A DNA stretch of 64,000 bases from Advenella mandrilli (GTDB lineage Bacteria; Pseudomonadota; Gammaproteobacteria; Burkholderiales; Burkholderiaceae_B): positions 1 through 64,000 of the forward strand of contig NZ_JAENGP010000011.1 of the NCBI RefSeq assembly GCF_016595155.1, given 5' to 3'. Positions 2,734 to 40,248 of this stretch are shown one piece after another. A program made the position numbers and the translations under genes. Each line of letters opens with the position of its first letter. The stretch's first letter is position 1. The notes beneath the pieces are model-generated. The model had not been told where the DNA came from, ran no database searches, and saw only the letters and a program-made list of their open reading frames with translations.

Positions 2734-2755
2734 TCGTCTATAGGAAATGGAACAG

Positions 2756-22624: not shown

Positions 22625-22745
22625 CGTGACCGATCTTACGTAATACCGTGACCGATCTTACGTGGATATCTTTTTGAGAAGCTCTTGAAAACGTTGCTGC
22701 ATATAGCATTGAGCCATTTTGAAATATGCGTGACCGATCTTACGT
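22625..22745. repeat. Three iterons of a plasmid-type replication origin
   Basis: The 17-bp sequence CGTGACCGATCTTACGT occurs exactly at 22625-22641, 22647-22663 and 22729-22745. The first two start 22 bp apart, about two helical turns. They sit just beyond the 3' end of the repA-like gene in an AT-rich setting, as expected for Rep-binding iterons of an oriV. A partial 'CTACGTAAC' occurs near 22573. Confidence 0.85.
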
Positions 22746-22792: not shown

Positions 22793-23719
22793 TTATTGTT
22801 TGATTCTGGCCAGGTTATTTGATGCCCGATGGATGTGTAGTTTTGCTGATCTTAGAATTAAAAAGCATTCATCGTGATCAATGCAATTGGCAATTTCAGG
22901 ATAGAAAAGAATAACTTCTTTTAGGCGAATTAAAAATTTATGCCTAAAATCGCGCAGAGCCTGTTGCTCAATTTTTTTCTGATTGTTGGCAGTTAGTTTT
23001 TTACTATTTGACCCGTAGCCAGAACCAAACTGGGCTTGTAGGGCTTTCCAAGGTATTTTTACCTGAGGTTGTTTTTTCATTCGAAGTAGGAAAATACGAT
23101 AAATTAACCAGGCATAAATATCCATTGCAAGAGGGGACTTTTTAAGCGCTTGCATTACTCTTAAATCGAGTGGCACTGGTGCTTGGGTGATCTCATCATA
23201 GAACTCGTTTGTGAGCATGATTTGCCCACCCCAAACCGGTTTGTCAGTTGTTTTGTCCCAGCATAATACGGCCTTTTTAGCGATCAGAATGTTATCAACC
23301 ATGAATTTATCGTTATCAGAATATTCGATACTAATCAGTGATGAAAATAATCGCCTGGCTTGCTCATCCAATTGCTTGATATAGTAACCAGTGTTTTGCA
23401 TGCCTAACATCCTTAAGAATTCGGCCTGTGAAGAACCGATATTTAGAATTGGACTTTGGGTTTTCACTGCTTGTGTGCATATCCAAGTTAATAGTAGTCT
23501 TGGAATTGAACCGTACGGCAATCCAATTTTGGGTTTTCCTGTAATCGATAAAGTTGTTAATCCGTTAGTTCTCTCGTAATAGTTCGTTTTGGGATCAGAA
23601 TGGGGTATTGAGCTTTGAGCAAGCGTGCGTGCTAAAAAACCGATCATGCCGGTTTCTTTTGCTGCCTCTCGTTGGATCAGAACAGCTGTATTGATAAGGC
23701 TGTCCTGACGTTTAGTCAT
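22793..23719 (-). CDS. repA: Plasmid-type replication initiator (RepA family)
   Basis: A 308-residue initiator of the plasmid RepA_C type found in broad-host-range plasmids. Recognisable blocks are 'GKPKIGLPYGSIPRLLLTWICTQ', shown here only in part ('LPYGSIPRLLLTWI'), 'SQAEFLRMLG', and the winged-helix C-terminal region 'MDIYAWLIYR' followed by 'IPWKALQAQFG'. It should bind the nearby iterons. The start overlaps the preceding HTH gene by eight bases, so the two share a message driven from the promoter near 23930-23958. A replicating intermediate would let the excised ICE persist. Assignment is by family resemblance; an ICE carrying it would be autonomous for part of its cycle. Confidence 0.85.
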   Translation of the reverse strand: MTKRQDSLINTAVLIQREAAKETGMIGFLARTLAQSSIPHSDPKTNYYERTNGLTTLSITGKPKIGLPYGSIPRLLLTWICTQAVKTQSPILNIGSSQAEFLRMLGMQNTGYYIKQLDEQARRLFSSLISIEYSDNDKFMVDNILIAKKAVLCWDKTTDKPVWGGQIMLTNEFYDEITQAPVPLDLRVMQALKKSPLAMDIYAWLIYRIFLLRMKKQPQVKIPWKALQAQFGSGYGSNSKKLTANNQKKIEQQALRDFRHKFLIRLKEVILFYPEIANCIDHDECFLILRSAKLHIHRASNNLARIKQ

Positions 23720-23912
23720 TTTTTACTATGTTATCTGGGTGAGGAATTTTTTCAGGATCCATATAATGAAATGCCAGCATCCAGGATCTAGGAATTTCAT
23801 TATTTTTTACCCATTGTGAAATTCTACCTTTACTTAAACGTGTGATAGTTAATACTTTTTGAGCACCTCCCAGAGTTTGAATGATTTTTTTTGCGTCCAT
23901 TTTTTGTTTCAC
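23712..23912 (-). CDS. Small Cro/YdaS-like HTH regulator upstream of repA
   Basis: A 66-residue protein with a helix-turn-helix of Cro/YdaS type ('AQKVLTITRLSKGRISQWVKN'), ending in an acidic, proline-containing tail. It lies first in the rep operon, overlaps repA by eight bases, and is divergent from the repressor at 24005. This resembles a phage-like bistable switch. It probably binds the same GTTTAGAA operators. DNA-binding fold is clear; the target is inferred. Confidence 0.75.
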   Translation of the reverse strand: MKQKMDAKKIIQTLGGAQKVLTITRLSKGRISQWVKNNEIPRSWMLAFHYMDPEKIPHPDNIVKND

Positions 23913-23929
23913 TTATTAATCCATACAAA

Positions 23930-23971
23930 AGTTTAGAGTTTTCTAAACTTGAGGTCAAGAATTTTCTAAAC
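23930..23971 (-). promoter_or_regulatory. Leftward promoter/operator module (rep side)
   Basis: Read on the minus strand there is TTGACC (23953-23958), a 17-bp spacer, then TAAACT (23930-23935), a good sigma-70 promoter pointing into the HTH-repA operon. The operator GTTTAGAG-TT-TTCTAAAC (23931-23948) covers the -10 region, and a half-operator (23958-23971) covers the -35 region. The whole 41-bp unit is an inverted copy, with two differences, of 24519-24559. Confidence 0.75.
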
Positions 23972-24004
23972 CACAGACGAGCAATAGTTGTGTTTAATTA
24001 GGAT

Positions 24005-24379
24005 ATGGATAAAAGATATATGATTCGCCGAACTAGGTTACGCCAGCTCATTGATGAAAGAGCTGACGGAGTCATTGTTCGCTTTGCGGAAATGTATGAG
24101 TATTCAAAGTCCCAAATTGGTCAGTACTTATCAACCACATATAACAATGGTAAAAGCATAGGGGATAAAGCAGCCAGGGCTATTGAACAAAGGCTGGGCT
24201 TAGAACCTTTGTGGTTAGATGGGGATCAACATTCAGTTGAAACTAAAGATTGGCCTTTTATTGTTTCTTATGATGATTACATGTCATTGAGTGAACAAGA
24301 TAAAAATGAAGTCAATACGTTGTTAAAACTTAAAGTAGATGCTGCCAATTCTCAAAAAACAGTAAAAAAAACTGCTTGA
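24005..24379 (+). CDS. HTH repressor controlling replication and transfer (CI-like)
   Basis: A 124-residue regulator. The N-terminal helix-turn-helix domain resembles XRE/CI type ('RFAEMYEYSKSQIGQYLS'), followed by 'GKSIGDKAARAIEQRLGL', a common ending of this domain in phage-like repressors. The C-terminal part is short, with no S24 peptidase dyad, so it would not self-cleave in the SOS response. Mirror-image promoter/operator modules flank the gene on both sides, which suggests that it (or the divergent HTH protein) represses both the rep and tra operons. Start ATG at 24005 follows TTAGGAT. Confidence 0.75.
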   Translation: MDKRYMIRRTRLRQLIDERADGVIVRFAEMYEYSKSQIGQYLSTTYNNGKSIGDKAARAIEQRLGLEPLWLDGDQHSVETKDWPFIVSYDDYMSLSEQDKNEVNTLLKLKVDAANSQKTVKKTA

Positions 24380-24390
24380 GCATACGTGTT

Positions 24391-24424
24391 TCTACTATGT
24401 AGATAAAAATGTCTACTACGTAGA
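24391..24424. promoter_or_regulatory. Two phased inverted repeats TCTAC-N3-GTAGA
   Basis: TCTACTATGTAGA (24391-24403) and TCTACTACGTAGA (24412-24424) are near-identical palindromes starting 21 bp apart, two helical turns. They lie just after the repressor gene and before the transfer-operon promoter. They look like paired operators for a second, unidentified regulator. Confidence 0.6.
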
Positions 24425-24496
24425 TTTCGTTGATTAAGAATCAATTTTCAAAATATTTGGATTAAAACAACAACAAAAAAACAAAGTTACAAAAAA

Positions 24497-24560
24497 GTTT
24501 AGAAAATTCTAATTAAAAGTTTAGAAAATTCTTGACCTAAAGTTTAGAAAATTCTAAACT
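24497..24560 (+). promoter_or_regulatory. Rightward promoter/operator module (transfer side)
   Basis: TTGACC (24532-24537), a 17-bp spacer and TAAACT (24555-24560) form a promoter facing the transfer operon. Three copies of the operator core GTTTAGAAAATTCT start at 24497, 24519 and 24542. The last is a full inverted repeat GTTTAGAA-AA-TTCTAAAC that covers the -10 box. Bases 24519-24559 mirror 23931-23971 with two mismatches. Confidence 0.78.
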
Positions 24561-24599
24561 TGAGTTATCGAGTAATCGGTAGCTCTTTAAAAATTAATT

Positions 24600-24930
24600 C
24601 AGGAATAACCGGTAGTCGTACCGGTGAAGCAGACACCATTCATATGTGAATCTGGGTGAAGTGATGCCCGTTTATATGTGAATGACGATATGCAGCGGTT
24701 CTGTCCGGATGGCCGCAACCAAACATCGTATTTGTGAAAAATAGCCACGCACAATGTGCCTGGTCGGAAAACACCAGTAAGACGATACTGACACGGAAAA
24801 AACAGCTGTGAACGTGAATATTCACGGTATGAAATAACCTGACAACCAGCAGTGTGAAACGTATTAATCTGTTTGACTGGCCGGAAAAGACGGCAGAAAA
24901 GCCCCTCATAGCGAGGGGGGCTTTGGTAAG
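24600..24930 (+). ncRNA. Long structured leader upstream of the transfer operon
   Basis: About 480 bases separate the promoter from the first plausible start at 25049, and I find no convincing gene in them. The segment is richer in G+C than its surroundings. It holds a perfect 7-bp hairpin (ACCGGTA-GTCG-TACCGGT, 24608-24625), a hairpin around TTCATATGTGAA (24639-24650), repeated 'GTGAA' words, and a terminator-like stem AAGCCCCTC...GAGGGGGGCTT near 24899-24924. It may be an attenuating or regulatory leader RNA. No known RNA family is recognised. Confidence 0.45.
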
Positions 24931-25048
24931 TTCTTTTATTTAAAAGAGAATTTACAGAAGCAGGACACTTAGAGCAGCTAAGACTCTTGATGCAATCCGA
25001 GAAGGAATGATTGGGACGAATGCTGCTTTCCAGCGGAAAAAGGGAAAT

Positions 25049-25372
25049 ATGATGGAAAACTTTGATAAAAATTTTTTTGATAAAGAAAAATGCCATTCAA
25101 AAGGCATTCCTGCGCTTAAACGTTTATTGGCTATTGCACAGGGAAACTCAGGGCAATGCCGTATTGTCGCTAATTTTTTGTTAAGTCTTTATAACGGAGA
25201 CCGGTTTAAGTTTGATCTAACTGATTTCCGTAGTTTGGATATCTCCATTTTTATAGATAGCATTGCTGTTTTAGGGATGGACTATAGACCAAAACAAGAG
25301 GTGCATTGTTATTTTGAAAATGGTGGAAAAATCTGGGAAGATTTGGCTGAAAAATGGAAATTAAATAAATAG
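25049..25372 (+). CDS. DUF7673-type conserved protein of the transfer operon
   Basis: A 107-residue soluble protein whose central 'IPALKRLLAIAQGNSGQCRIVANFLLSLYNG' block (quoted in parts: 'IPALKRLLAIAQG', 'VANFLLSLYNG') is typical of a small conserved family (DUF7673) found on conjugative plasmids. Molecular function is unknown. I start at the ATG-ATG pair at 25049/25052, after AAAAGGG, rather than the farther upstream 25007. It is first in the operon that runs to the integrase and is followed by a terminator-like hairpin at 25373-25402. Confidence 0.65.
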   Translation: MMENFDKNFFDKEKCHSKGIPALKRLLAIAQGNSGQCRIVANFLLSLYNGDRFKFDLTDFRSLDISIFIDSIAVLGMDYRPKQEVHCYFENGGKIWEDLAEKWKLNK

Positions 25373-25373
25373 T

Positions 25374-25403
25374 AATCAGGTGCTCATACCTGATTTTTTT
25401 TAG
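25374..25403 (+). terminator. Intrinsic-terminator-like hairpin inside the transfer operon
   Basis: AATCAGGT-GCTCAT-ACCTGATT followed by seven T residues directly after the DUF7673 gene. The next gene is on the same strand 12 bp later, so it likely acts as partial terminator or attenuator. Confidence 0.6.
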
Positions 25404-25411
25404 GGAAAAAT

Positions 25412-26164
25412 ATGAAAGCAGTTCATTTTGTTTTACAGGGCAAAGGTGGTGTTGGAAAATCGTATATTGCTTCTTTACTGGCGCAATTCATTAATCAAAT
25501 CGAATTCCAAGCGCATTGTTATGATACTGATCCGGTTAATACAACATTTTCAAAATACAAAAAACTGGGTGTTGAAGTGGTCAATATTTTGACTGAACAT
25601 CAAAGTATTGATGCCTCAAAATTTGATAGTTTAATTGAAAAAATTATTGAAAAAGATGGTGTGTCAGTGATTGATAATGGGGCAGCAACATTCATACCAC
25701 TGATGCAATACCTGCGTGAAAACGACGTTGTTGGTCTTTTGGAAGAATCAGGTGTTGATGTCAATATTCACGTACCAATAACATCAGGGCAGGCAAGCAA
25801 GGATACATTAACTGGTTTGATTACAGTATTACAGCAATTGAATACTCACGTCATTGTATGGCAAAATAATTACTGGGGTAATGTTGAGCTGGATGGTAAG
25901 GAGTTTTTAGATTGGAAAGTTTACCAGGACAACGTTGAACAGATAGTAGGTGTTATTCAACTTGAAAACCTGAATCCTGATACGTTTGGCAAAGACATCA
26001 AACAAATGACGAGCGAGCATTTAACATTTGATGAAGTTATGCAGTCGTCCAATTATACGTTAATGCCTAAGCAACGGCTAAAACGGGTACAGCGTGATGT
26101 GTTTAACCAGCTGGCACAACAAACTATTTTTGTCCGGCAAGAAAGCCTTGGAGGGTTAGGATGA
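25412..26164 (+). CDS. traL: TraL-like ParA-superfamily nucleotide-binding protein
   Basis: A 250-residue P-loop protein with a deviant Walker A box 'LQGKGGVGKSYIASLLAQF' near the N terminus and 'CYDTDPVNTTF' next, the pattern of ParA/MinD relatives. Its closest match by memory is TraL of IncP plasmids (about 240 residues, encoded beside TraM), whose role in conjugation is supportive and not well defined. It ends in an ATGA overlap with the trbM-like gene. Stability proteins of the StbB type are similar and cannot be excluded. Confidence 0.75.
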   Translation: MKAVHFVLQGKGGVGKSYIASLLAQFINQIEFQAHCYDTDPVNTTFSKYKKLGVEVVNILTEHQSIDASKFDSLIEKIIEKDGVSVIDNGAATFIPLMQYLRENDVVGLLEESGVDVNIHVPITSGQASKDTLTGLITVLQQLNTHVIVWQNNYWGNVELDGKEFLDWKVYQDNVEQIVGVIQLENLNPDTFGKDIKQMTSEHLTFDEVMQSSNYTLMPKQRLKRVQRDVFNQLAQQTIFVRQESLGGLG

Positions 26165-26802
26165 ATATACGTTTAAGGACATTGATAATGCTGCCATTGG
26201 CGGCATTTTTTTTGGCTAGTGCGAATACGGTATATGCCCAGAATGAGCTAACAGGAGATACTCGACTTGCATGTGAAGCGGTGCTTTGTTTGTCCAGCAG
26301 TACTCAACCTGGCGAATGTGCACCATCGTTAGCTCGGTACTTTGGTATCAAATTCGACAAACCATGGGAGACGATTAAAGCCAGAATCGATTTTTTAAGT
26401 ATGTGCCCAGCTCACAATGAACCAGGTATGTCATCACTAATTGTTGCTATTGCAAATGGGGCAGGGAAATGTGATTCAGCGTTTTTGAATCGGTTCAATA
26501 AAATTGAAATGGTTCGGAAAGAATGCAAAAAAGTCGGATGGTATGACCATGATCAAAGTTGCACAACAACTCAAGTTGAATTAATTAGTAATAAAAAACC
26601 AGACTATTGCTTGGTTTATGAAAACCATGAGTACACGGATTTAAATACTGGTTACGTAGGAGATATGTTGACTGGTGGTCGTTGGGCGGATGTTGATGAG
26701 TACGATCAGGCGCTGCAGCGCTATAAAGATAATTATCAGCCTATCCCTAGAGGAGTAACCTATTCCCCCCTAAATGACGGTAAATCTGAAAATGACAGTT
26801 GA
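26161..26802 (+). CDS. trbM: TrbM-like conjugal transfer protein, exported
   Basis: A 213-residue protein with an N-terminal signal peptide ('LIMLPLAAFFLASANTVYAQ', likely cut after AYA/YAQ) and several cysteines in a mature periplasmic domain. 'LTGDTRLACEAVLCLSSST' and 'CAPSLARYFGIKF' are the hallmark of the TrbM family of IncP plasmids. It starts inside the traL stop codon and overlaps the traM-like gene. Its exact job in mating is unknown; disulphide-stabilised periplasmic folding is expected. Confidence 0.85.
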   Translation: MNIRLRTLIMLPLAAFFLASANTVYAQNELTGDTRLACEAVLCLSSSTQPGECAPSLARYFGIKFDKPWETIKARIDFLSMCPAHNEPGMSSLIVAIANGAGKCDSAFLNRFNKIEMVRKECKKVGWYDHDQSCTTTQVELISNKKPDYCLVYENHEYTDLNTGYVGDMLTGGRWADVDEYDQALQRYKDNYQPIPRGVTYSPLNDGKSENDS

Positions 26803-27220
26803 TAAAAACCTTGTGCCTGAAGCTATTGAAAAGGTTGATCCTGTAAATGCCGACATCAAACAGATTATTAGTGACGTGTTTAGCATTAGTGGTCTTAAAA
26901 TTTCAGCAGATGATCCTATTGTTGCTATTTTGCTTTATCAAAAAAAACAGCTGGCCATAAACAGAAAGGGATTGGAAGAACATGATAATGCATTTTTTAT
27001 AAATCTTGATCAGCGGTTTCAGAAAATAAGCCAACACTACGAAGAAATGCAAAATCAGAAAAACATCATATTGACCGAGCTGATGCAAAAAAATGAACGA
27101 TTGGTAAAGGACGAGCTGCAAAAGCAAAAACCAAACCATGAAACCGTTTTTTTTGTCGTGCTGGGTATTTTGGTGACCTTACAGTTTTTGTTAATTCTAT
27201 TGACACTATTCAAACCATGA
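26774..27220 (+). CDS. traM: TraM-like protein with C-terminal membrane anchor
   Basis: A 148-residue protein: a soluble N-terminal part with 'ISADDPIVAILLYQKKQL', a central coiled-coil-rich region, and one C-terminal transmembrane helix ('FFVVLGILVTLQFLLILLTL'). This build matches the TraM family of IncP plasmids (sometimes called transcriptional activator TraM). The ATG at 26774 overlaps trbM by 29 bp; the ATG at 26792 is an alternative. The end overlaps the virB1 start by four bases. The TraL-TrbM-TraM grouping supports the call. Confidence 0.7.
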   Translation: MTVNLKMTVDKNLVPEAIEKVDPVNADIKQIISDVFSISGLKISADDPIVAILLYQKKQLAINRKGLEEHDNAFFINLDQRFQKISQHYEEMQNQKNIILTELMQKNERLVKDELQKQKPNHETVFFVVLGILVTLQFLLILLTLFKP

Positions 27221-27957
27221 AATTTAAGATTTTAATTACTCCATTGTTATTGTATGGAGGCACAGCCCTGGCAGCCGTGGAAACGGTTAATTTCAATGCC
27301 CTGGCCAAAGAGTGTGCCCCTGGCGTTCATGTTGCTACATTGCAAGCGATAGCACGCACGGAAAGCGGTTTTAATCCGTATGCCATTGGCGTTGTAGGCG
27401 GTTCAGTTAAACAGCCACAAAGCTTTTCTGAAGCCGTGGAAACGGCCAATAAACTACACGCACAGGGTAAAAATTTCAGTATGGGTCTTGCCCAGGTAAA
27501 CCGGCATAACATTGATAAATATGAGCTGGATTATGAAAAAGTGTTTGACCCATGCTTAAATCTGAAAGCCGGTGCAGAAATCTTGGCTGAATGTTTTTCC
27601 AGGGCAAGTGGTAAACCACAACAAGCCCTGCAAAAAGCTTTGAGCTGCTATTACTCCGGCAACTTTCGTACGGGATTTACCCAAGACTTTGCCGGATTGC
27701 CCAGCTATGTGGACCGGATAAAAAATAGTGCCGTCGAGAATACAGATGGGCAAGTTATTAAACTGGCACAGGCTGATTTAAATAAAGAGCCTGAAACAAT
27801 CATTCCGGCCATTGATCCAGCGGCACCGGCACCGGTGACCGTAAAAGTCCGGGGAAAGCCAAAGAAAACAGCACATGCACCGGTAAAGCCCGTTACCGAA
27901 AATAAAAGAGACCCAGATCAACCCAAGAAAAGCTGGGATGCATTTGGTGAGTTTTAA
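27217..27957 (+). CDS. virB1: VirB1-like lytic transglycosylase
   Basis: A 246-residue exported muramidase that opens peptidoglycan for the type IV secretion channel. A signal peptide (to about residue 20, '...GGTALAAV') precedes the SLT domain, with the catalytic glutamate in 'AIARTESGFNPYAIGV' and the typical 'NFSMGLAQVNRHN' and 'LKAGAEILAECF' motifs. A Pro/Lys-rich tail ends in 'KKSWDAFGEF'. It begins the mating-pore block and overlaps the TraM-like gene by ATGA. Confidence 0.92.
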   Translation: MKFKILITPLLLYGGTALAAVETVNFNALAKECAPGVHVATLQAIARTESGFNPYAIGVVGGSVKQPQSFSEAVETANKLHAQGKNFSMGLAQVNRHNIDKYELDYEKVFDPCLNLKAGAEILAECFSRASGKPQQALQKALSCYYSGNFRTGFTQDFAGLPSYVDRIKNSAVENTDGQVIKLAQADLNKEPETIIPAIDPAAPAPVTVKVRGKPKKTAHAPVKPVTENKRDPDQPKKSWDAFGEF

Positions 27958-27974
27958 TAATGTAGGAGGTCATC

Positions 27975-28280
27975 ATGAAAGTACCAGCACTGGTGCTGGC
28001 AGGCGTGTGTCTTTGTTTTTCTTCATCGGTCTATGCCTGGTACAGCCCACCCTGGAACAACTGGAGCGGTAAAGGTGTTGATGCACACGTAACCATTCCG
28101 ATTAAAAAACCAGACAACAGTCCGCAGCAGGACAGTTTTAAACAACAAATTGGACGTATTGATACAGGAGTAAGCATATACCCAACATCATATAAAAAAG
28201 TAAATGGATATACCCGGTTGTCCTTGGGTGATCTATTTGGCAGTTTTGGTTCACAGGCCGTTATCAACATTAATTGGTAA
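27975..28280 (+). CDS. Small exported protein of unknown function (between VirB1 and VirB2)
   Basis: A 101-residue protein with a signal peptide ('LVLAGVCLCFSSSVYAWY', cut after VYA). The mature part is short and rich in aromatic and polar residues ('YSPPWNNWSGKG', 'VNGYTRLSLGDLFGSFG'). A strong GGAGGT precedes the ATG. I do not recognise a family. The position suggests a periplasmic or pilus-linked accessory of the VirB system. Confidence 0.6.
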   Translation: MKVPALVLAGVCLCFSSSVYAWYSPPWNNWSGKGVDAHVTIPIKKPDNSPQQDSFKQQIGRIDTGVSIYPTSYKKVNGYTRLSLGDLFGSFGSQAVININW

Positions 28281-28315
28281 CGGTTTTTTTATTATTAAAT
28301 TTCAAAAGGTTAAAT

Positions 28316-28684
28316 ATGAGTATCGTTGTAAATAAAGAAAACCCTAAATCTCTGGATTTGAAAGCTGTTTTCAAAGAATCCTTGCTGTTTCTGCTTTTAG
28401 CCGTTTTCCTTTTTGTGTGTAGTGATGCTATGGCGCAAGTGGGTGGGGGTGGCGGGTTTGCTAATGAAGCTAAAAGAATGATTGAAAATGTACGGGACGG
28501 CATTGTAATTATTGTGGGTGTTGTTGCAATGATTGCACTGGTCTGGACAATGGCACAAGGCTTTCAGGGCAAGAAAACTTGGTCTGATGTGCTTGAAATG
28601 AGCTTGTGGATTTTTGGCGCTGGGGCGGCAGTATTAGCAGCAACATGGTTTTTTACCTCTGGCCAAAAAGTCACATTTGGATAA
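28316..28684 (+). CDS. virB2: VirB2-like pilin (TrbC/VirB2 family)
   Basis: A 122-residue pro-pilin. It has a long signal sequence ending near residue 40 ('CSDAMAQVGGGGG'), a glycine-rich start of the mature form, and two transmembrane helices ('GIVIIVGVVAMIALVWTMA' and 'LWIFGAGAAVLAATWFF') separated by a charged loop. This is the pilus subunit of the type IV secretion system. The start at 28316 follows AAAGG; the longer frame from 28274 lacks a good ribosome site. Confidence 0.88.
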   Translation: MSIVVNKENPKSLDLKAVFKESLLFLLLAVFLFVCSDAMAQVGGGGGFANEAKRMIENVRDGIVIIVGVVAMIALVWTMAQGFQGKKTWSDVLEMSLWIFGAGAAVLAATWFFTSGQKVTFG

Positions 28685-28691
28685 GTGAAAA

Positions 28692-29108
28692 ATGCAGATG
28701 GAAGAAAAAACATTCCCAACGTATGGGGCTTTGTCTCGGTCTGCAATAGTGATGGGTATTCCATTAGTGCCGATGGCGGCATTAATCGGTTGCACTATGG
28801 TGGTAACAATGTTTTTTTTGACCTTTATTGGCGGAAAAGCATTGTTATTAACGGTGATTCCGATACCGATTCTCTTTGTATTTAAAACCGTTTCAAAAAA
28901 TGATGACAGGGCATTGAATATCCTGGGATATGAATTGCTCTGTTTTTTTTATAGACGCAATGCCCGGCTTTTTAACAAAACAACAACGATTCTGGGCACC
29001 AAATACGGACAGAAATTAAATGATTATCAGCGATTTTTTGAACAACGCTCTGAAGCGGCAGGCAGGTCAGTCAGATTTTCTACCGAAAATATCCCAACAC
29101 GTGACTGA
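28692..29108 (+). CDS. virB3: VirB3-like inner-membrane protein
   Basis: A 138-residue protein with a pair of transmembrane helices ('AIVMGIPLVPMAALIGCTMV' region and 'LLLTVIPIPILFVF') and a basic cytoplasmic tail, the VirB3 pattern. It works with VirB4 in pilus assembly. Its last 89 bases overlap the start of the virB4 gene in another frame, an unusually long overlap; a GTG at 29101 would make the overlap only eight bases. Confidence 0.82.
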   Translation: MQMEEKTFPTYGALSRSAIVMGIPLVPMAALIGCTMVVTMFFLTFIGGKALLLTVIPIPILFVFKTVSKNDDRALNILGYELLCFFYRRNARLFNKTTTILGTKYGQKLNDYQRFFEQRSEAAGRSVRFSTENIPTRD

Positions 29109-31425
29109 AAACATTGTCCATTATAGTGATGGGTACTTTGCGTTTACGGTACGACTTGAAGGCATACCGTTTGAGTCAGTAAACGATAACTACTTGTACA
29201 ACCAGTTTCACCAGCTGGCATTAACCTTTTCCGGTGCTGGCAAGAACCTGGGCAACCGGTTGGCGGTCTGGACAACATTGCAACGAAAGAAACGGGATTT
29301 CAACAGGCTATATCAACAGGAAAATATTTTTTGCCAGGAGTTCACCGAAAAATATATTTCACGGTTTCAGAAAGGCAGCTTTTTCAGCAATGCATTTTAT
29401 ATAACAGCGTTAATCAAGTATGAGGATTACGATGATGGTCTTAAAGAAATATTGGACCTGCTTGATGCCTTGATGCAAGACCTGCAAACTTATGATCCTT
29501 ATGTACTGACCGTATATAAAAATAAGTTCGGTATTGTATTTTCTGAAGTTTATGAGTTCTTTGATTCTTTGATTAACTATGAATATGAACGAATACCTTT
29601 ATCAAATATAGATGCCTGCGAAGTATTGGGTGATTCTGACCTGCATTTTGGTACAGACGTAGTTGAAATACGCACGCCTAACAATACAATGTACGCAACT
29701 TGTTGGGACTTGAAAGACTTTGGTGTATCAAAAGTCAAGGTATTGACGGGTGTTCTTGACTTGCCGTGTGAATTTAACTTCACGCAAAGTTTTTCTTACA
29801 TTGAGAACCAGAAAATTCAGACTACGATAAATAAACAGATCAATAACCTGATTTCAGTTGGTGACCAGGCGCATGATCAGCATGATGAACTGCTGCAGGG
29901 TAAAGGCGGGGTGACGTCAGGCGAACTGATGTTTGGTGATTACCATGCCGCTTTGGTGGTATACAGTGACTCGCTGAAAGATGCCACCCGACTGGGCACT
30001 TTGGCACGTGCCCGTTTTCAAAACTCGGGCGGTTTTCAATTTAAAAAAGCGGGTTTTTCGGCACCGATTACTTATTTCAGCCAAGTCCCGGGTGCAAAAA
30101 AACGGCCACGCAGTGCGCCCAAAACAACGGTCAATCTGGCAACCACATTTGGCATGCATACCCATAGTCACGGTAAAACTATGGGTAATCCGATTGGTGA
30201 CGGCAGTGCAGTCATGCCTTTGCTAACCAAGTCCAATACCATTTATGACTTTAATTGGCACTTCAGTAGTCCGAAAGAAGATAATACGGGCGATAAACTG
30301 GCCGGGCATACGCTTCTGTTAGGTGCTACGGGTGTAGGTAAAACGACCATGGAAACGGCCATGTTAACAATGACCCAACGTTTTAACCCGTTTTTGTTCG
30401 TACTTGATCTTGATTATGGCATGCAGATTTTTATGCGGGCAATAGGTGGTCAGTATTTCTCCTTAGAGGCTGGTAAGCCCACTGGCTTGAATCCATTCCA
30501 GTTGCCTGATACAGCAGACACCAGAGAGTTTTTAAACCGACTGGTGGGCGTTTGTGGGCAGAATTCAGAGGGAAAACTATCAGCTGAAGAAGAGCATCAA
30601 ATTAAACATGCGATTGATACGATGTTCAACAACATTAATTTTGAAAATCGTAACTTCAGTGTCCTACTGCAAAGCATTCCGTTTTCTGCGGAAGATAATT
30701 CACTTCGTACTCGTCTGACTAAATGGTGCCGTAGTGAAGGAGGCCGTTATGCCTGGTGCCTGGATAACCCGGTTAACAAATTTGATCCTGATACATTCAG
30801 CAAGATCGGATTTGACCTGACGGATCTCCTGAAAGAAAACTATGCACCAACCGAACCGGTGCTTGCCTATTTGTTTTATTTACGAAATCTCATGATGCAG
30901 CGAATTGCCCAGCATGATGGCTTGATGATGACGGTTGTTGAGGAATGCTGGTGGCCGTTGCGCTTCAATGCAACCAAAGACCAGATCCTGAAAATCCTGA
31001 AAACAGACCGCAAGCTGGGGGGCTGGATTTTGCTGACAACCCAAAGCCCTGAAGATGTGATCCAGTCTGACATTTTTCCTGCCATTGTGCAGCAAACACC
31101 CACTAAAATCTACTTGCCTAACCCGGATGCCAAATTTGAAGGAGGATATGAAAAATGCGGCATGACCCGCAAGGAATTTGACGAATTAGTCAAGTTAACC
31201 CTGGATAGCAGAACATTTCTTGTTAAACAGGGGCAGCAATCATCATTTGCCAAGTTGGATCTGTACGGGTTTTCTGATGAACTGGCCGTGTTGTCCGGTT
31301 CAGCCAACAATATTGAAATCCTGAATCAATTGATGAGCGAACGCGATTTTGATAGTCCCAATGACTGGTACCCGATTTTTAAAGAACGGGTAAAGGTAGC
31401 CAGGAAAGCAAAACGAAAAATATAA
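29020..31425 (+). CDS. virB4: VirB4-like ATPase of the type IV secretion system
   Basis: An 801-residue CagE/TrbE/VirB4 ATPase that energises pilus biogenesis and substrate transfer at the inner membrane. The Walker A box 'LLLGATGVGKTTMETAML' lies near residue 430, with 'FVLDLDYGMQIFMRAIGGQY' soon after. The Walker B region is 'LMMTVVEECWWPLR', followed by 'WILLTTQSPEDVIQS'. The chosen ATG (29020) overlaps VirB3 by 89 bp; GTG 29101 is an alternative start. It is the largest pore component here and well conserved. Confidence 0.93.
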   Translation: MIISDFLNNALKRQAGQSDFLPKISQHVTENIVHYSDGYFAFTVRLEGIPFESVNDNYLYNQFHQLALTFSGAGKNLGNRLAVWTTLQRKKRDFNRLYQQENIFCQEFTEKYISRFQKGSFFSNAFYITALIKYEDYDDGLKEILDLLDALMQDLQTYDPYVLTVYKNKFGIVFSEVYEFFDSLINYEYERIPLSNIDACEVLGDSDLHFGTDVVEIRTPNNTMYATCWDLKDFGVSKVKVLTGVLDLPCEFNFTQSFSYIENQKIQTTINKQINNLISVGDQAHDQHDELLQGKGGVTSGELMFGDYHAALVVYSDSLKDATRLGTLARARFQNSGGFQFKKAGFSAPITYFSQVPGAKKRPRSAPKTTVNLATTFGMHTHSHGKTMGNPIGDGSAVMPLLTKSNTIYDFNWHFSSPKEDNTGDKLAGHTLLLGATGVGKTTMETAMLTMTQRFNPFLFVLDLDYGMQIFMRAIGGQYFSLEAGKPTGLNPFQLPDTADTREFLNRLVGVCGQNSEGKLSAEEEHQIKHAIDTMFNNINFENRNFSVLLQSIPFSAEDNSLRTRLTKWCRSEGGRYAWCLDNPVNKFDPDTFSKIGFDLTDLLKENYAPTEPVLAYLFYLRNLMMQRIAQHDGLMMTVVEECWWPLRFNATKDQILKILKTDRKLGGWILLTTQSPEDVIQSDIFPAIVQQTPTKIYLPNPDAKFEGGYEKCGMTRKEFDELVKLTLDSRTFLVKQGQQSSFAKLDLYGFSDELAVLSGSANNIEILNQLMSERDFDSPNDWYPIFKERVKVARKAKRKI

Positions 31426-31450
31426 CCGTCTATTGGGCGGTTTTTTTTTA
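31424..31450 (+). terminator. Terminator-like hairpin between virB4 and virB5
   Basis: ACCGTC-TATT-GGGCGGT followed by eight T residues. It lies inside a co-directional operon and is presumably a partial terminator or a message-stabilising hairpin. Confidence 0.5.
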
Positions 31451-31464
31451 CTCAAGGAAAGAGA

Positions 31465-32094
31465 ATGAAACTTTTAAACAGTGTAGCCATTCTGGCCATG
31501 ATGGGTTTTCAAACGGTTATGGCGCAGGGCATTCCCACGATTGATAAGGCCGCTATCCTGAAGTATGGCGAGCAAATCATACAAATGAAAGAGCAGATTG
31601 ATAATCAGATTCAACAGATCACGGAACTGAAGAGCCAGGTTAAAGCCCTGACAGGAGGCAGGGAAATGGGTAACTTGCTAAAAGATACGGTTAAAGACCA
31701 AATCCCTGATGAATGGAACGATATTTATAAATTGGTGAACATAGATACCAGCAATCTAACTGACACTAAAAAGTTTGATCCAGAGGCTAATTTAAAGGCT
31801 TTGGCTGGTATCCAACAAATGACGGAAACGGCTTTTTCTGATACTAAAAGTAGGCAGGCCAATATTGATGGCCTTATGCGGGAATTGAATAACACGACTG
31901 ATATCAAAGCGGCAGCAGACTTGCAGGGACGCATTGCTGCAGAACAGGCCACGATTGCGAATAACCAAACAAAGCTTGATCAAATGGCCCGCATGTATGA
32001 AATTCAAAAAGAAGTGAATGCAAGGCAACGGACGGCATACAACCAGTGTGTACTTGAAAATTGGGCGGTAAATGATGATGGTAATTGCAGATAG
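31465..32094 (+). CDS. virB5: VirB5-like pilus-tip protein
   Basis: A 209-residue exported protein. The signal peptide ends near 'VMAQGIPTID'. The mature part is helical, with long coiled-coil stretches ('QIIQMKEQIDNQIQQITELK'), and near the C terminus 'QVNARQRTAYNQC'-like and 'AEQATIANNQTKLDQMA' segments typical of TrwJ/VirB5. It acts as a minor pilin at the pilus tip. It is followed by an EexN-like lipoprotein, the same order as in R388-type plasmids. Confidence 0.85.
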   Translation: MKLLNSVAILAMMGFQTVMAQGIPTIDKAAILKYGEQIIQMKEQIDNQIQQITELKSQVKALTGGREMGNLLKDTVKDQIPDEWNDIYKLVNIDTSNLTDTKKFDPEANLKALAGIQQMTETAFSDTKSRQANIDGLMRELNNTTDIKAAADLQGRIAAEQATIANNQTKLDQMARMYEIQKEVNARQRTAYNQCVLENWAVNDDGNCR

Positions 32095-32159
32095 TTCAAG
32101 ATGGTTACAAATTGCAATACAATAAGCCTGCATTATTATTACTTAATAAAGGTTTAACG

Positions 32160-32459
32160 ATGAAATTATTTGTGGCAATCGCTTTAAGTGCAACTTTGTT
32201 TTTAACAGCTTGCGGTGAAAAAAATGATTCAGCGAAGTCAACAACCGCTGTATCAATCACTATTCCAGAGGGTACTCCAGTACCGCCCGGTGGATTAGGA
32301 AATGAAGATGAAATGAAATGCAAAACAAATTCAAATTATCATGGTAAAGACCATGAGCGCACGGCACAACTTTGTAAGTCAAGGTTAGGCCAGGAAAAAT
32401 GTGAGCAATATTTCACTAAAGCAGCTTGCAATTCACCGCCTGAAAAAGAGGATAGTTAA
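32160..32459 (+). CDS. EexN-like entry-exclusion lipoprotein
   Basis: A 99-residue lipoprotein with a short signal ending in the lipobox 'LFLTAC', then a low-complexity linker and a small cysteine-containing domain ('YHGKDHERTAQLCKSRLGQ', 'CEQYFTKAACNSPP'). Size, lipobox and place between VirB5 and VirB6 match entry-exclusion proteins of IncN/IncW-like systems, which stop redundant mating between carriers. I start at 32160, preceded by AAAGG; the upstream frame to 32085 has no signal. Confidence 0.75.
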   Translation: MKLFVAIALSATLFLTACGEKNDSAKSTTAVSITIPEGTPVPPGGLGNEDEMKCKTNSNYHGKDHERTAQLCKSRLGQEKCEQYFTKAACNSPPEKEDS

Positions 32460-32461
32460 TC

Positions 32462-33394
32462 ATGCATTCTGTTCTGATTGCAATGTCAGAATATATAACA
32501 GGTAATCTTGGCAGTAACCTATTTATGAAAACGGGTGCATTTATTTCAAATATTGCGCCCGTTTTTTCTATTGGGTTTGGGTTATACGTTGTTATTCTGG
32601 CTTTTTATTATTACAACCGTGGTCTTGATGAATCCATTTTGGAATTGACAAAAAAATCCATTGGCTGGTTGTTAATCATTGCATTTGCTTTTAATGCAAA
32701 AAACTATGCCTATCTGGCTAATTTGTTTTATGGGTTACCTGAAGCTATGGCAGGTTGGTTCAGTGGTGAAGAAGTGAATGCAACAGCCATCAAAGCCAGT
32801 GTAGGTCATATAAATGACACCATTGCCGCTCTCGACAAACTAATTGATGATGCAAGTTGGTATGAACTGCAACTTCAATTTACCGTGTTTTTAGCTAAAG
32901 TTGTGGTGTATTTATGTGGCACTGTACTGGTGTCGTTTGTATTTTTCTTTTACTTGATAGCAAAGTTATGCCTAGCATTAACATTAATGGTGGGCCCATT
33001 ATTTATTGGGGCGGCTCTATTTCCGGCAACTAGGCAATATGCAATGAACTGGCTGGGACAAATCCTGAATTTTGCAGTCAGCGTAACTTTGTATTCAGTT
33101 ATTTTTATTTTACAAACAAGCTTTGTTGAAGGGCAGCTTGAAAAATGGGGAACCAGTGGGATTAAAAATATTGCCGGTGCCTATGAAGTGGCATCAATCA
33201 TGGTGATATTAACGATCTTGTTCATTATCGTGGTCCTGAGCATACCATCAATCACATCAGCCCTGACAGGTGGTGCCGGTGTTGATGGACAGGGCAGAAC
33301 AATGGGTAGATTGGGTGCAAATGCAATTGGGGCAGGTAAATTTGTTTCACGTTTAGCCAGTAGTCTGCGGTCGAATGGCATGAAAGGGAATTAA
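32462..33394 (+). CDS. virB6: VirB6-like polytopic membrane protein
   Basis: A 310-residue inner-membrane protein with five to seven hydrophobic helices, for example 'FSIGFGLYVVILAFYYYN', 'VVVYLCGTVLVSFVFFFYLI' and 'SIMVILTILFIIVVLSIPSI', ending in a glycine-rich basic tail. This matches the TrbL/VirB6 family, which forms part of the DNA path across the inner membrane. It directly follows the EexN-like gene with no gap to speak of. Confidence 0.9.
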   Translation: MHSVLIAMSEYITGNLGSNLFMKTGAFISNIAPVFSIGFGLYVVILAFYYYNRGLDESILELTKKSIGWLLIIAFAFNAKNYAYLANLFYGLPEAMAGWFSGEEVNATAIKASVGHINDTIAALDKLIDDASWYELQLQFTVFLAKVVVYLCGTVLVSFVFFFYLIAKLCLALTLMVGPLFIGAALFPATRQYAMNWLGQILNFAVSVTLYSVIFILQTSFVEGQLEKWGTSGIKNIAGAYEVASIMVILTILFIIVVLSIPSITSALTGGAGVDGQGRTMGRLGANAIGAGKFVSRLASSLRSNGMKGN

Positions 33395-33403
33395 AGGAAA
33401 ACT

Positions 33404-33796
33404 ATGTTGGAAGACAGACGTATCCAAAAGGCAATTAGCAGTTATGAGGTCAGTAAAGGCTGGTCTACGGTTTTTTTATTCTATGGCTTGTTGGTGTCAG
33501 GAGTTGTTGGCCAGCTTCTGTATTTGGGCTTACAGTATATTGGTGTTGAAAAGGCAGAGGGATACGCCTGGTTTTTAGGTATTCTGTTTTTTGTGGCCGC
33601 TATTTATTTCATAATAAATTTTCCAATTATCGGCTTACTTATAGGCGGTTTTTTAACTGTAAATGTGTCGGCAACAGCAGCCTATTTTACTTATGAATCT
33701 GGGGGCTTGGGTAGTTCACTAGCCGTTTTTGCCGTACTGTGTTTGATCAGTAGTGCGATTCATTACACTGCAATTGAAGATCTGAAAAATATCTAG
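33404..33796 (+). CDS. Small four-helix membrane protein, unknown
   Basis: A 130-residue protein with four predicted membrane helices ('VFLFYGLLVSGVVGQLLYLGL', shown here as 'LFYGLLVSGVVGQLLYLG', then 'FLGILFFVAAIYFIINF', 'IIGLLIGGFLTVNVSATAAY', 'SLAVFAVLCLISSAIHY'). No family is recognised. The place between VirB6 and VirB7 suggests a type IV secretion accessory or an exclusion or immunity protein. It is followed by a terminator-like hairpin. Confidence 0.55.
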   Translation: MLEDRRIQKAISSYEVSKGWSTVFLFYGLLVSGVVGQLLYLGLQYIGVEKAEGYAWFLGILFFVAAIYFIINFPIIGLLIGGFLTVNVSATAAYFTYESGGLGSSLAVFAVLCLISSAIHYTAIEDLKNI

Positions 33797-33812
33797 TCTA
33801 GCTAAGTGTCCA

Positions 33813-33842
33813 ACATAACCGCCTCAGGGCGGTTTTTTTATG
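33813..33842 (+). terminator. Terminator-like hairpin before virB7
   Basis: AACCGCC-TCA-GGGCGGTT followed by seven T residues, 17 bp upstream of the virB7 start. It resembles the other hairpins punctuating this operon. Confidence 0.6.
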
Positions 33843-33858
33843 TCCGAAAGGTTTTTAT

Positions 33859-34014
33859 ATGAAGATCAAAAAAAAATTGAGTATAGGGCTGTTAGCACTT
33901 GTATTAACGGGCTGTGCTGCACCCAAACCACCACCGGAACCCTCCGGTACCCCGTTCCCGATTAATCCAGCAGATTTGAAAAATGAGGCAGGTAATGCAG
34001 TCAAGAAAAAATAA
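33859..34014 (+). CDS. virB7: VirB7-like lipoprotein
   Basis: A 51-residue lipoprotein: a basic start (MKIKKK), hydrophobic segment, lipobox 'LVLTGC' with the lipidated cysteine at residue 19, then a proline-rich mature part ('APKPPPEPSGTPFPIN'). This is the usual form of VirB7, which pairs with VirB9 and VirB10 in the outer-membrane core. It overlaps the VirB8 start. The call rests on build and position. Confidence 0.78.
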   Translation: MKIKKKLSIGLLALVLTGCAAPKPPPEPSGTPFPINPADLKNEAGNAVKKK

Positions 34015-34687
34015 AACACCCTCACCAAAACAATCAGCGATTGAATTTATCCAACAAGCCAATGAGTTTGAAAAATCAAGGATTGTGGCGGTCAAGCGCA
34101 ACAATAAAATTGCCTGGGGCATAACGGGTGTAAGCACGCTTATGACAATTATGAGCGTAGCGGCTGTGATGCTGTTGGCACCGCTTAAAACCGTTGAACC
34201 GTTTGTTATTCGGGTAGATAACAATACCGGTGTTACAGATATTGTGACAATCATGAAAGAACAAAATAAAAGCTATGGCGAAATCATAGACCGCTATTGG
34301 TTAACCCAGTACGTCAAATTCAGGGAAAGTTACGACTGGTGGACGGTACAGGCTGGCTACGATGCGGCCATGCTGTTAAGTGGTGCGACAGAGCAGGGTG
34401 TTATAGGTGGCTTGTTTCAAAGCGAGGGGGCACCCTACAAGGTATTCAAAGATCGTTTCAGGGTTGATGTCAAAATTTTATCGGTTACCTGGATCGGTGA
34501 GGTTGCACAAATACGTTTTGAAAAACAGGTCAAACCCTTATCAGAATCAACCCAGCGGCCACCGGTTCAACGTTTAATGGCAACCTTAGGGTACCAATAT
34601 ATAAATACGCCTCAAGCGGATAAAGACCGGGAAATCAATCCGCTGGGGTTGCAGGTAATGCACTATCGTGTAGATACTGAAAGTTAA
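33995..34687 (+). CDS. virB8: VirB8-like bitopic core protein
   Basis: A 230-residue inner-membrane protein: a short cytoplasmic part, one transmembrane helix ('WGITGVSTLMTIMSVAAVMLL'), and a periplasmic NTF2-like domain starting 'APLKTVEPFVIRVDNNTGV', the VirB8 hallmark. 'DRYWLTQYVKFRESYDW' is also typical. I use ATG 33995, after GAGGCAGG, instead of 33983. It overlaps virB7 by 20 bp. Confidence 0.9.
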   Translation: MQSRKNKTPSPKQSAIEFIQQANEFEKSRIVAVKRNNKIAWGITGVSTLMTIMSVAAVMLLAPLKTVEPFVIRVDNNTGVTDIVTIMKEQNKSYGEIIDRYWLTQYVKFRESYDWWTVQAGYDAAMLLSGATEQGVIGGLFQSEGAPYKVFKDRFRVDVKILSVTWIGEVAQIRFEKQVKPLSESTQRPPVQRLMATLGYQYINTPQADKDREINPLGLQVMHYRVDTES

Positions 34688-34696
34688 GGTGTTTTT

Positions 34697-35545
34697 ATGA
34701 AATACAAAAATAGGGTAAAGCTGCTGATGGCAGCTGTTTTTTTTAGTACGGCTACTACTTCGGTTCATGCACTGGTAATCCCTAAAGGCTCACAATATGA
34801 TGCCCGGGTGCAAACCGTGACATACAGCCCGTATAACGTTACGAAAATTACCGCACAAGTTGGTAAAACCGTCTTGGTGCAACTGGAAAAAGATGAGTTC
34901 CTAGCCGAAGATGACCCAGCCGCCACGGTAGCCATGGGCGATGCCCTGGGCTGGAATTTGTCGGTACACGGCAACAACATTGTGTTTAAACCTGCCGTTG
35001 AAAAATCAGATACCAATATGGTGATTGTCACGAATAAAAGAACGTATGTTTTTCAGCTTGAAGTCAATAATGAGGCATTACATCCTACTTATGTTTTGCG
35101 GTTTCATTACCCCGATACCGCAAAACAAAAGCGTGATGAATACAAAGAAAAACAAGATCAAGCGTTTGATATTCTAACTGGTAAAAATATGCGCTTGAAT
35201 GTCAATATCCAGAATCAGGAATATTGGGGCTTTGGTGATGCGGGTATTGCACCCACGGCCATGTATGACGATGGTCTGTTTACATACTTTGAGTTCAATA
35301 ACGGCAAGCACCTGCCAACGATTTATAAAAAAATGCCCGATGGCACAGAAGCCTTGGTTAACAAGCACGTACAGGGTGATACCGTCATTGTTCATGAACT
35401 GAATAAAGACTTTGTGCTGCGGCTTGGCCAGTCTGTCCTGGGCATCGAAAACCGGGGTTTTAATGAGCGAGGCCGGTTTAATAACCTGGGCACGAATAAA
35501 AAGAATGCCGTGCGTATTATCAAAAATAAAGGAACCAGAAAGTGA
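34697..35545 (+). CDS. virB9: VirB9-like outer-membrane core protein
   Basis: A 282-residue exported protein with a signal peptide ('LMAAVFFSTATTSVHA') and two beta domains of the VirB9 family: 'DARVQTVTYSPYNVTKITAQ' early, and later 'LNVNIQNQEYWGFGDAGIAP' and 'TYFEFNNGKHLPTIYKK'. It builds the outer-membrane ring of the channel with VirB7 and VirB10. The stop overlaps the VirB10 start by four bases. Confidence 0.92.
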   Translation: MKYKNRVKLLMAAVFFSTATTSVHALVIPKGSQYDARVQTVTYSPYNVTKITAQVGKTVLVQLEKDEFLAEDDPAATVAMGDALGWNLSVHGNNIVFKPAVEKSDTNMVIVTNKRTYVFQLEVNNEALHPTYVLRFHYPDTAKQKRDEYKEKQDQAFDILTGKNMRLNVNIQNQEYWGFGDAGIAPTAMYDDGLFTYFEFNNGKHLPTIYKKMPDGTEALVNKHVQGDTVIVHELNKDFVLRLGQSVLGIENRGFNERGRFNNLGTNKKNAVRIIKNKGTRK

Positions 35546-36729
35546 GTATTTTTGATAGAAATAATATAGAGCCTGTCATGCCTAATGAGTTGTCACCAGA
35601 ACCGCTTTCTGAACAGCTTAATAATAAGGACGTTGAGCGTGGCATGCCAGAACTGCACATTCAAAAGAAAAGCAATACGGGCAAAGTGTTTATAGCAGCC
35701 GTTTTGGTCTTGGGTTTATTGTTGATTATTCTTGGGTATATGAGTTTTGGTGGTGGCGATGAAGAAGTTGTAGAAGAAGCACAGGCAGAACAGGTGCAGA
35801 TAAGAAACACCCGGCCAATCGACTTTGAAACCGAACAGGCTGGGTTGATTGTCAAGGAACCGGAACAAGCACCCAGTGTCCCAGTTAATTCAGGTCAGTC
35901 AGCCTATCAGACTGCTGTCTCTTCAAGTACGGAAAGCTGGAGTGGTGAAAGCACTACCGTTCAAAAAGAACTGGCAGAGCCGGACAGACGACTTCAGGGT
36001 AACGCAACAATAGCAATAAGCCGCTCAGGTTCAATAGCATCACAAACCGTTGGAAGCCAGGAAATTGGCCGTGAAACGGTCTTAAGCAATCGGTTAAACC
36101 CTACCGTAACCACTTCTGCTGTTGCCCGACAACGGGCTGACTTGACCTATTTACTGAAGAAGGGCACCAACATTTCATGTACCTTGGACACAAAGATTGT
36201 GACAACCCATCCGGGTATTACACGTTGTATCGTTAATAAAGACGTGTACTCATCGAATGGCAAAGTATTGTTAATCGAAAGGGGTTCTGAAGTGATTGGT
36301 GAACAGACAGCAGCCCTATTGCAAGGGCAGGCACGGGTCTTTGTTCTATGGAATGCGATTGATACGCCCAATGGCGTGGCACTGGATATTAATAGTCCAA
36401 CGGCAGATTCTTTAGGTGCTTCAGGTCAAGAGGCCCAGGTGGATACGCATTTCTGGAAACGCTTTGGCGGGGCAATCATGCTTAGCCTGATTGATGATGG
36501 TCTTGTTATTTTGAGTGACCGCATCAATGACGGCAGCAGTAATGTCAGTTATGACAGCACTTCAGATGCCGTGCAGAACATGGCGGCCGAGGCTTTGAAA
36601 AACACGATTAATATACCGCCAACTGGGTACGTTAATCAGGGAACGCTGGTTAATGTCATGGTTGCCCGTGATGTTGATTTCAGGCCTGTCTACGAGTTGG
36701 TTGATCCGTATTTTTATACGGTTAAATGA
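35542..36729 (+). CDS. virB10: VirB10-like core scaffold protein
   Basis: A 395-residue protein spanning both membranes: cytoplasmic N-terminal part, one transmembrane helix ('VFIAAVLVLGLLLIILGYM'), a long variable linker, and the conserved C-terminal domain ('LLKKGTNISCTLDTKIVTTH', 'VLLIERGSEVIGEQ', 'GVALDINSPTADSLGASG', ending 'VMVARDVDFRPVYELV'). It links the energy-providing ATPases to the outer-membrane pore. Normal length. Confidence 0.93.
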   Translation: MSIFDRNNIEPVMPNELSPEPLSEQLNNKDVERGMPELHIQKKSNTGKVFIAAVLVLGLLLIILGYMSFGGGDEEVVEEAQAEQVQIRNTRPIDFETEQAGLIVKEPEQAPSVPVNSGQSAYQTAVSSSTESWSGESTTVQKELAEPDRRLQGNATIAISRSGSIASQTVGSQEIGRETVLSNRLNPTVTTSAVARQRADLTYLLKKGTNISCTLDTKIVTTHPGITRCIVNKDVYSSNGKVLLIERGSEVIGEQTAALLQGQARVFVLWNAIDTPNGVALDINSPTADSLGASGQEAQVDTHFWKRFGGAIMLSLIDDGLVILSDRINDGSSNVSYDSTSDAVQNMAAEALKNTINIPPTGYVNQGTLVNVMVARDVDFRPVYELVDPYFYTVK

Positions 36730-36789
36730 TGTTTATGGAATTAAAAATTGATCATATGTAGCTATCAGACAGCTTTTTATGGATAAGAA

Positions 36790-37869: not shown

Positions 37870-37889
37870 TTTTTTAAGGATATAAAAGA

Positions 37890-38318: not shown

Positions 38319-38319
38319 T

Positions 38320-40224: not shown

Positions 40225-40248
40225 TAATCAACGATAGGAGTTATTGTC

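Follow-up and report, generated by a model that had tools for sequence, protein, structure and literature searches.

The window (the whole stretch of DNA that was analyzed, 64,000 nucleotides of a contig of Advenella mandrilli) contains a 42.8-kb element with a GC content of 0.40 to 0.42, compared to 0.48 to 0.51 outside. Since an integrase, att repeats, a relaxase, a coupling protein, and a type IV secretion system (T4SS) are all present (Table 1), the element is an integrative conjugative element (ICE); other virB-type genes, ssb, and a large primase-like gene were read by eye within 25412..42792. A preliminary description had placed one promoter/operator module facing repA on the left and its mirror image facing the transfer genes on the right. 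This orientation stands, with the correction that the element is integrated, as its att repeats show, so that replication would follow excision. A plasmid nucleotide search with positions 22500-26500 returned no close relative and only 6 records, matching trbM. Reading by eye, we also noted cargo resembling defence genes between 4509 and 16787 (a SIR2-like and HerA-like pair, a DUF262-like gene, a reverse transcriptase-like gene, and a very large helicase/methylase-like gene), a umuD/umuC-like pair at 18483-20182, for which pWTk445 has an annotated counterpart, and a second integrase-like gene just outside attL, at 1113-2384, which perhaps comes from a neighbouring element.

Table 1. Features of the ICE and of its predicted control region (positions in the window).
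Feature	Position	Strand	Basis or remark
attL, copy of the tRNA-Leu 3′ end	2547..2599	+	53 bp, 98% identical to 45343-45395
mobC-like gene and relaxase	2747..4242	+	NikA-like/MobC and Relaxase models
Three iteron-like repeats GTGACCGATCTTACGT next to repA	22626..22745 (22626, 22648, 22730)	+	exact copies
repA (RepA_C)	22793..23719	-	Pfam 5.4e-22
cro-like gene, overlaps the repA start by 8 bp	23712..23897 (GTG start possible at 23912)	-	
Predicted promoter PR, TTGACC-17-TAAACT	23930..23958 (23958->23930)	-	promoter scan; same form in prophage
Left putative operator over the -10 of PR	23931..23948	-	genome/window motif search, matrix
Left putative operator over the -35 of PR	23954..23971	-	genome/window motif search, matrix
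CI-like repressor, 124 aa, HTH and C-terminal helix	24005..24379	+	profiles, PHROG, fold model
Right putative operator, upstream of PL	24497..24514	+	genome/window motif search, matrix
Right putative operator over the -35 of PL	24519..24536	+	genome/window motif search, matrix
Predicted promoter PL, TTGACC-17-TAAACT	24532..24560	+	promoter scan
Right putative operator over the -10 of PL	24542..24559	+	genome/window motif search, matrix
Short hairpin TATCGA-GTAA-TCGGTA directly before boxA (boxB-like position)	24566..24581	+	p 0.056
Structured leader RNA	24567..24960	+	fold z -4.81; covariation
boxA GCTCTTTAAAA	24582..24592	+	exact GYTCTTTAANA
DUF7673 gene, first predicted gene of the PL transcript	25007..25372	+	Pfam 1.4e-29
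Terminator-like hairpin and T run between the first gene and traL	25374..25403	+	3 G-C pairs
Transfer genes	25412..42792	+	traL, trbM, virB4, and coupling protein by family models
Tyrosine integrase adjoining attR	44202..45230	+	Phage_integrase 2e-34
tRNA-Leu (CAA) containing attR (45343-45395)	45343..45427	-	ARAGORN, Rfam

At the center of the element, positions 24519-24559 match the reverse complement of 23931-23971 at all but 2 of 41 bases, and a repeat finder stretches this mirror repeat to 23929-23971 and 24519-24561 (43 nt, 95%). The similarity score between the left and right regions was 37 against a shuffle maximum of 12, and none of 200 shuffles equaled it. A promoter scan found TTGACC, a 17-bp spacer, and TAAACT in each of the two units, and a motif search found them overlapped by an 18-bp palindrome, GTTTAGAAAATTCTAAAC, with the half-sites GTTTAG/CTAAAC; these putative binding sites are also designated GTTTAGAA sites. 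The two 41-bp mirror modules, their two differences, and the overlap of promoter and operators in each had all been proposed in the preliminary description and were recovered here by direct comparison, repeat finder, promoter scan, and motif search. Five copies of the palindrome are present, two to the left and three to the right of the gene at 24005, spaced by 22 to 23 bp (start to start) inside either cluster, and the copy at 24497 falls outside both 41-bp units. Allowing up to 3 mismatches, the window contains 7 matches, all at these five sites (two match on both strands), where 0.12 were expected and none of 100 shuffles reached 7; at the same threshold, a search of the whole genome (3,277,669 bases) found the operator nowhere beyond the five window sites. 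In addition, a matrix was built from 29 half-sites that lie upstream of cro in nine phage or presumed-prophage loci, and it ranked the seven half-sites of the window 1 to 7 among all positions on both strands of the 64 kb. Promoter-like sites are no commoner in the window than in shuffles (10 versus 10.5), so the promoter hexamers alone prove little. Taken as predicted from sequence, two mirror promoters of the sigma-70 type, overlapped by 18-bp operators, flank a CI-like gene; PR faces cro and repA to the left, and PL directly faces the transfer genes to the right. The divergent cI and cro genes with putative operators between them, and a second such region of the same predicted specificity beyond cI, are the arrangement of a lambda-type immunity region. 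Just 3′ of cI, at 24391-24425, lie two 14-bp palindromes, TCTACTATGTAGAT and TCTACTACGTAGAT, 21 bp apart, which have no further exact copy within the window and are possible sites of another regulator.

The repressor encoded at 24005 matched no Pfam family at an E value of 1, KORA included, and matches two phage regulator PHROGs. Its best match in both sequence and fold, although weak (profile E 5e-4; Foldseek E 1.3e-3; mean pLDDT of the AlphaFold model, 80.4), is PDB 5d50, the Salmonella phage repressor of a Rep-Ant complex, which was solved with its antirepressor. Peptidase_S24 was found in none of the 6 repressors tested from the window family (that of the window and those of five relatives), which makes a lambda-style RecA cleavage unlikely for the window element, and the match to a repressor solved with its antirepressor suggests, by analogy, that repressors of the window family may be controlled by an antirepressor. 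The Cro-like protein shares 56% identity with the corresponding proteins of Advenella sp. S44 and of a prophage; its matches to the YdaS and P22_Cro Pfam models are weak and below the cut-off, and its match to PHROG 409 is weak as well. RepA is about 50% identical to IncW RepA (tblastn, 49.7% to R388 and others).

Related elements were sought through TraL, which matched in 21 of 268 genomes of the family, 18 of 399 of the order, and 4 of 369 of the class, the three sets sharing some genomes. In a first round, 41 upstream regions (16 and 25) were examined, six weak TraL matches (L082-L087), G615 (too near a contig end), and G533 (partial) being left out. Ten contained cI, cro, and boxA: those of the window, C5 (a contig of the same genome), S44, pWTk445, G001C7, G031, G226, G394, G579a, and G579b. 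In these ten elements, the boundaries of cI, cro, and boxA were placed by eye, and G579b was noticed via its boxA. In most of the remaining regions whose ORFs were read, a set that omits G117, G140, and G141, traL is preceded by relaxase or unrelated genes; two small divergent HTH-like genes, with no boxA match, were seen in G398, and since only 2.4 and 1.3 kb lie upstream in G589b and G074a, a more distant switch could be missed there. A second round covered family f44, that of G394, which has TraL in 25 of 83 genomes and which may be Neisseriaceae, as the GCCGTCTGAA repeats in several of its loci suggest. It comprised 25 regions, 24 of them of at least 5.9 kb (G1019 was left out). A CI match was obtained in 18 of 24 f44 regions, 15 of which have a boxA within 420 nt; the other 3 have an exact boxA farther off. 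Among the 6 regions without a CI match, one (G1086a) has Cro, O-like, and boxA. Because the 15 f44 elements were picked for a boxA with at most 1 mismatch within 420 nt of cI, the frequency of boxA among them is not independent evidence. All 15 have a divergent small gene, 13 matching a known Cro and 2 recognized by position only. A Peptidase_S24 domain is present in 10 of the 13 f44 repressors tested.

Comparison of these elements shows that the repressor and both putative operator sets change as one unit. In the 10 x 10 matrix of left against right regions, an element's own two regions match better than regions of different elements do (1 of 20,000 permutations), and with 25 elements in 16 repressor clusters, 0 of 50,000 permutations of the cluster representatives matched the fit of the own pairs. 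Element by element, 16 of 25 scored their own operator region strictly above unrelated ones, and 9 of 25 did not (G031, G001C7, G579b, G1024, G1053, G1061, G1073, G1045, and G1063). G031 (36/200) and G226 (185/200) do not beat shuffles in the inverted orientation, and G226 does so in the direct orientation (0/200). Advenella sp. S44 has the same operator on both sides of a repressor 53 to 54% identical to that of the window. In the same genome as the window, a second element on contig C5 (read at 1-30000 and 90000-106743) matches 22 window proteins, 21 of which are 59 to 90% identical and in the same order. Its integrase is 39% identical to that of the window, blastp at 1e-4 found no match for the window cI and cro in the C5 element, and its operator, ATTACTTAAGTAAT, differs from the window operator. 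On this contig, traL lies at C5:4404 and the integrase at about C5:23965-24942, adjoining a tRNA-Met gene (C5:25046-25122), beside which the C5 element is apparently integrated. Since operator sets tend to match their own repressor, differently switched relatives could share a cell, i.e., show heteroimmunity.

The predicted PL transcript carries a putative boxA-type antitermination site near its start, as does the corresponding transcript of a lambda-type region. The boxA consensus is GYTCTTTAANA (PMC5725501), and GCTCTTTAAAA is the only exact plus-strand boxA in the window; a boxA was found in 4 of 2,000 shuffles. The site is exact in 8 of the 10 first elements and has one mismatch in the other 2, and the host rRNA spacer carries GTTCTTTAACAATTT between the tRNA and 23S genes. 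The boxA of the element is of the rRNA type, which makes host Nus factors the likely partners. Around and beyond boxA, a leader RNA of several hundred nucleotides shows covariation: in six copies from five elements of the window family, changes on both sides affect 21 of 43 pairs, with a covariation score of 0.467 versus 0.264 when shuffled (0/500) and at most 0.143 when slid, and in eleven further f44 leaders 12 of 34 pairs covary, both structures having been predicted from the very alignments used for counting pairs. Fold z-scores were not counted in favor of the leader, since control stretches upstream gave similar values (mean z of 13 leaders, -2.49; upstream control stretches, -2.24; cI coding stretches, -0.63). 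Rfam has no family for this leader: in the whole window, only the tRNA-Leu reached the gathering level, and when 24380-25010 was scanned permissively, the one match had an E value of 1.3. The hairpin directly before boxA was rejected as a general boxB-like feature, with p at most 0.1 in just 5 of 25 elements. Separately, a second boxA-like leader was seen behind another upstream CI-like gene in L026 (15482-15830) and L027 (about 4330-4620), which suggests that repressor-leader modules can be stacked one before another; the second leader copy of L026 was included in alignment A5.

Intrinsic terminators inside an operon are described as a good indication of an antitermination system (PMC8955417). 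Hairpin-plus-T sites occur between boxA and traL in 22 of the 25 elements, where 5.4 elements were expected, and amount to 70 sites versus 7.0 when shuffled. Along the transfer operons, strong sites reach 4.9 per 10 kb in the window, 5.8 in C5, and 5.9 in pWTk445 (the hairpin at 25374, with 3 G-C pairs, was excluded from this count), compared to 0.9 in R46, 1.0 in Providencia pYPR25-2, 0.6 in Campylobacter pVULP, 0.9 in R388, 0 in Comamonas, and 0.9 in Citrobacter, the GC content of the control operons ranging from 0.32 to 0.62 against 0.42 to 0.48 for the compared elements. Three further control stretches had 0 strong sites, and the transfer operon of IncX1 plasmid pOLA52, which has an annotated NusG-family protein, had 3.0 per 10 kb. 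The minus strand of the window transfer region has 11 terminator-like sites, so that the number of terminators does not by itself prove the case. Inverted GCCGTCTGAA repeats make up the hairpins of several f44 elements. Such repeats are common in Neisseria genomes anyway, and part of the f44 hairpin count may therefore be unspecific.

These hairpins could also be insulators or attenuators of separately promoted genes, with boxA and Nus factors serving RNA folding or repression rather than antitermination. Positions within the operon lend themselves to this explanation, as 7 of the 12 plus-strand sites of the window lie inside genes (4) or at gene starts (3) and 5 are intergenic, and boxA can indeed also mediate translational repression, as described for suhB (PMC5725501). 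We nonetheless consider it less likely, since the hairpins are enriched over the control operons, the one control with a NusG-family gene of its own takes an intermediate value, and boxA and the covarying leader are kept while repressors and operators change.

The left side of the switch raises the question of whether repA belongs to it. The 8-bp overlap of cro and repA and the gene order of relatives would fit a replication gene carried in the cro transcript. In 7 of the first ten elements, the gene immediately following cro is of the replication type (4 are RepA-like by blastp and 3 O-like by PHROG), and an O-like gene directly follows cro in 14 of the 15 f44 elements; for G394, G579a, and G579b, O-like is the name of the PHROG that matched best, and the other 14 were assigned by blastp to that of G394. 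A lambda-like switch that governs only cI/cro and transfer, with repA as an incidental neighbour under its own promoter, would account for S44, pWTk445, and G001C7, in which cro is not beside a rep gene, and for the pair read by eye as HicAB behind the S44 cro (L027, 4707-5296; locus identical to L038, NZ_NEXS01000014.1), where the window has repA. Against it, cro overlaps the RepA-like gene in the window, C5, G031, and G226 (the RepA-like protein of G031 having only 128 aa), and the O-like gene recurs after cro in all but one of the 15 f44 elements, which together make an incidental repA unlikely.

Operators of the same type and Cro-like proteins extend beyond conjugative elements. A search with a Cro alignment returned 29 loci, 6 in genome contigs and 23 in viral contigs, of which 27 were examined (L065 and L066 were left out). 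Within the 110 bp preceding cro, 24 of 27 loci have at least one GTTTAG half-site, one of the 24 being the S44 plasmid contig itself, and 22 of 27 have two or more; no such half-site was found there in L043, L057, and L056, the last being cut by a contig end. Relatives in prophage and viral contigs share the order of cI and cro as well as the operator type, and in region L028 of the Alcaligenaceae family (also found as viral contig L045) TTGACT-17-TAAACT occurs with the same operators. A plasmid-type global repressor of the KorA kind, acting in an ordinary copy-number and transfer circuit without bistability or phage descent, would suit the plasmid-type RepA_C initiator with its IncW resemblance and half-sites that resemble the IncP KorA operator, but it is improbable given a repressor without a KorA/TrfB DNA-binding domain at E 1 and with matches to phage regulator PHROGs and, weakly, to 5d50 instead, the prophage and viral occurrences of operator and Cro, and the S24 domains and O-like genes of f44.

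We therefore favor, with a probability of about 0.72, the reading that this locus is the lambda-type immunity region, or master switch, of an ICE, antitermination included. The prophage and viral relatives, the joint change of operators and repressor, and the order of cro and the rep gene all support the proposal, made in the preliminary description, that one repressor ties replication and conjugation together in a phage-like manner. In the lambda-type switch, both promoters would be kept silent by CI dimers bound to the operators, two on the left and three on the right, perhaps with a loop formed across the roughly 590 bp that separate the operator clusters, and CI would also control the cI gene itself. 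Once repression ends, Cro would take over, and derepression would start cro-repA, for replication of the excised circle, together with an 18- to 20-kb transfer transcript. At boxA and the folded leader, RNA polymerase from PL may then acquire host Nus factors, for which the relatives offer comparative support, and the modified polymerase would resist the terminators in the transfer operon, so that mainly PL-born transcripts would reach the T4SS genes. A broader claim has about an even chance of being right: that elements in at least two bacterial families run a full lambda-style circuit, in which a bipartite, exchangeable CI/Cro region couples replication to conjugation and sets the heteroimmunity of sister elements and in which the T4SS operon needs host-type antitermination by boxA and leader without a dedicated antiterminator protein.

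If the lambda-type reading is right, operator sequences could reveal superinfection immunity between conjugative elements, as they do for phages; the folded boxA leader would become a candidate for an RNA-based antiterminator in conjugation operons of Gram-negative bacteria; and repressors with and without S24 would allow a natural comparison of the ways in which elements sense when to move. Two differently switched sister elements in one genome make heteroimmunity directly testable. A literature search found nothing describing this element family or combining, for it, a SetR-like switch with conAn-like antitermination.

In phage lambda, cI lies between two operator regions whose operators are about 23 bp apart, with cro and a replication gene on one side and a long boxA-bearing transcript on the other. 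The element shares this plan, with cI between operators, cro and a replication gene on one side, and a boxA transcript opposite. Unlike in lambda, the switch would drive conjugation and not a lytic cycle, RepA_C replaces O in the window, the window repressor has no S24 domain, a folded leader of several hundred nucleotides takes the place of the short nut site, and no N-like protein is known so far for the element. Among conjugative systems, IncX1 pOLA52 likewise has a terminator-rich T4SS operon, although it has a NusG-family protein and its annotation shows no CI/Cro pair in front. The SXT/R391 ICEs resemble the element in having a CI-like repressor, SetR, and a Cro-like gene, with operators between divergent genes (PMC4542580). 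SetR acts on setCD, the activator of transfer; four operators lie in one intergenic region, and a further site 800 bp downstream of PL was suggested and not assessed there (PMC4542580). The passages of that account devoted to SetR mention neither a boxA leader nor a rep gene behind cro (PMC4542580). In conAn, found in pLS20-family plasmids, a conjugation operon with many internal intrinsic terminators is subject to processive antitermination at its start (PMC8955417); that system is Gram-positive and uses the ConAn1 protein and conAn2 RNA, whereas the element has an rRNA-type boxA. The nearest known counterparts are SetR and its Cro-like partner for the switch of an ICE and conAn for antitermination, and the region described here would join phage-type repressor switches in ICEs to processive antitermination of conjugation operons, which have been known separately.
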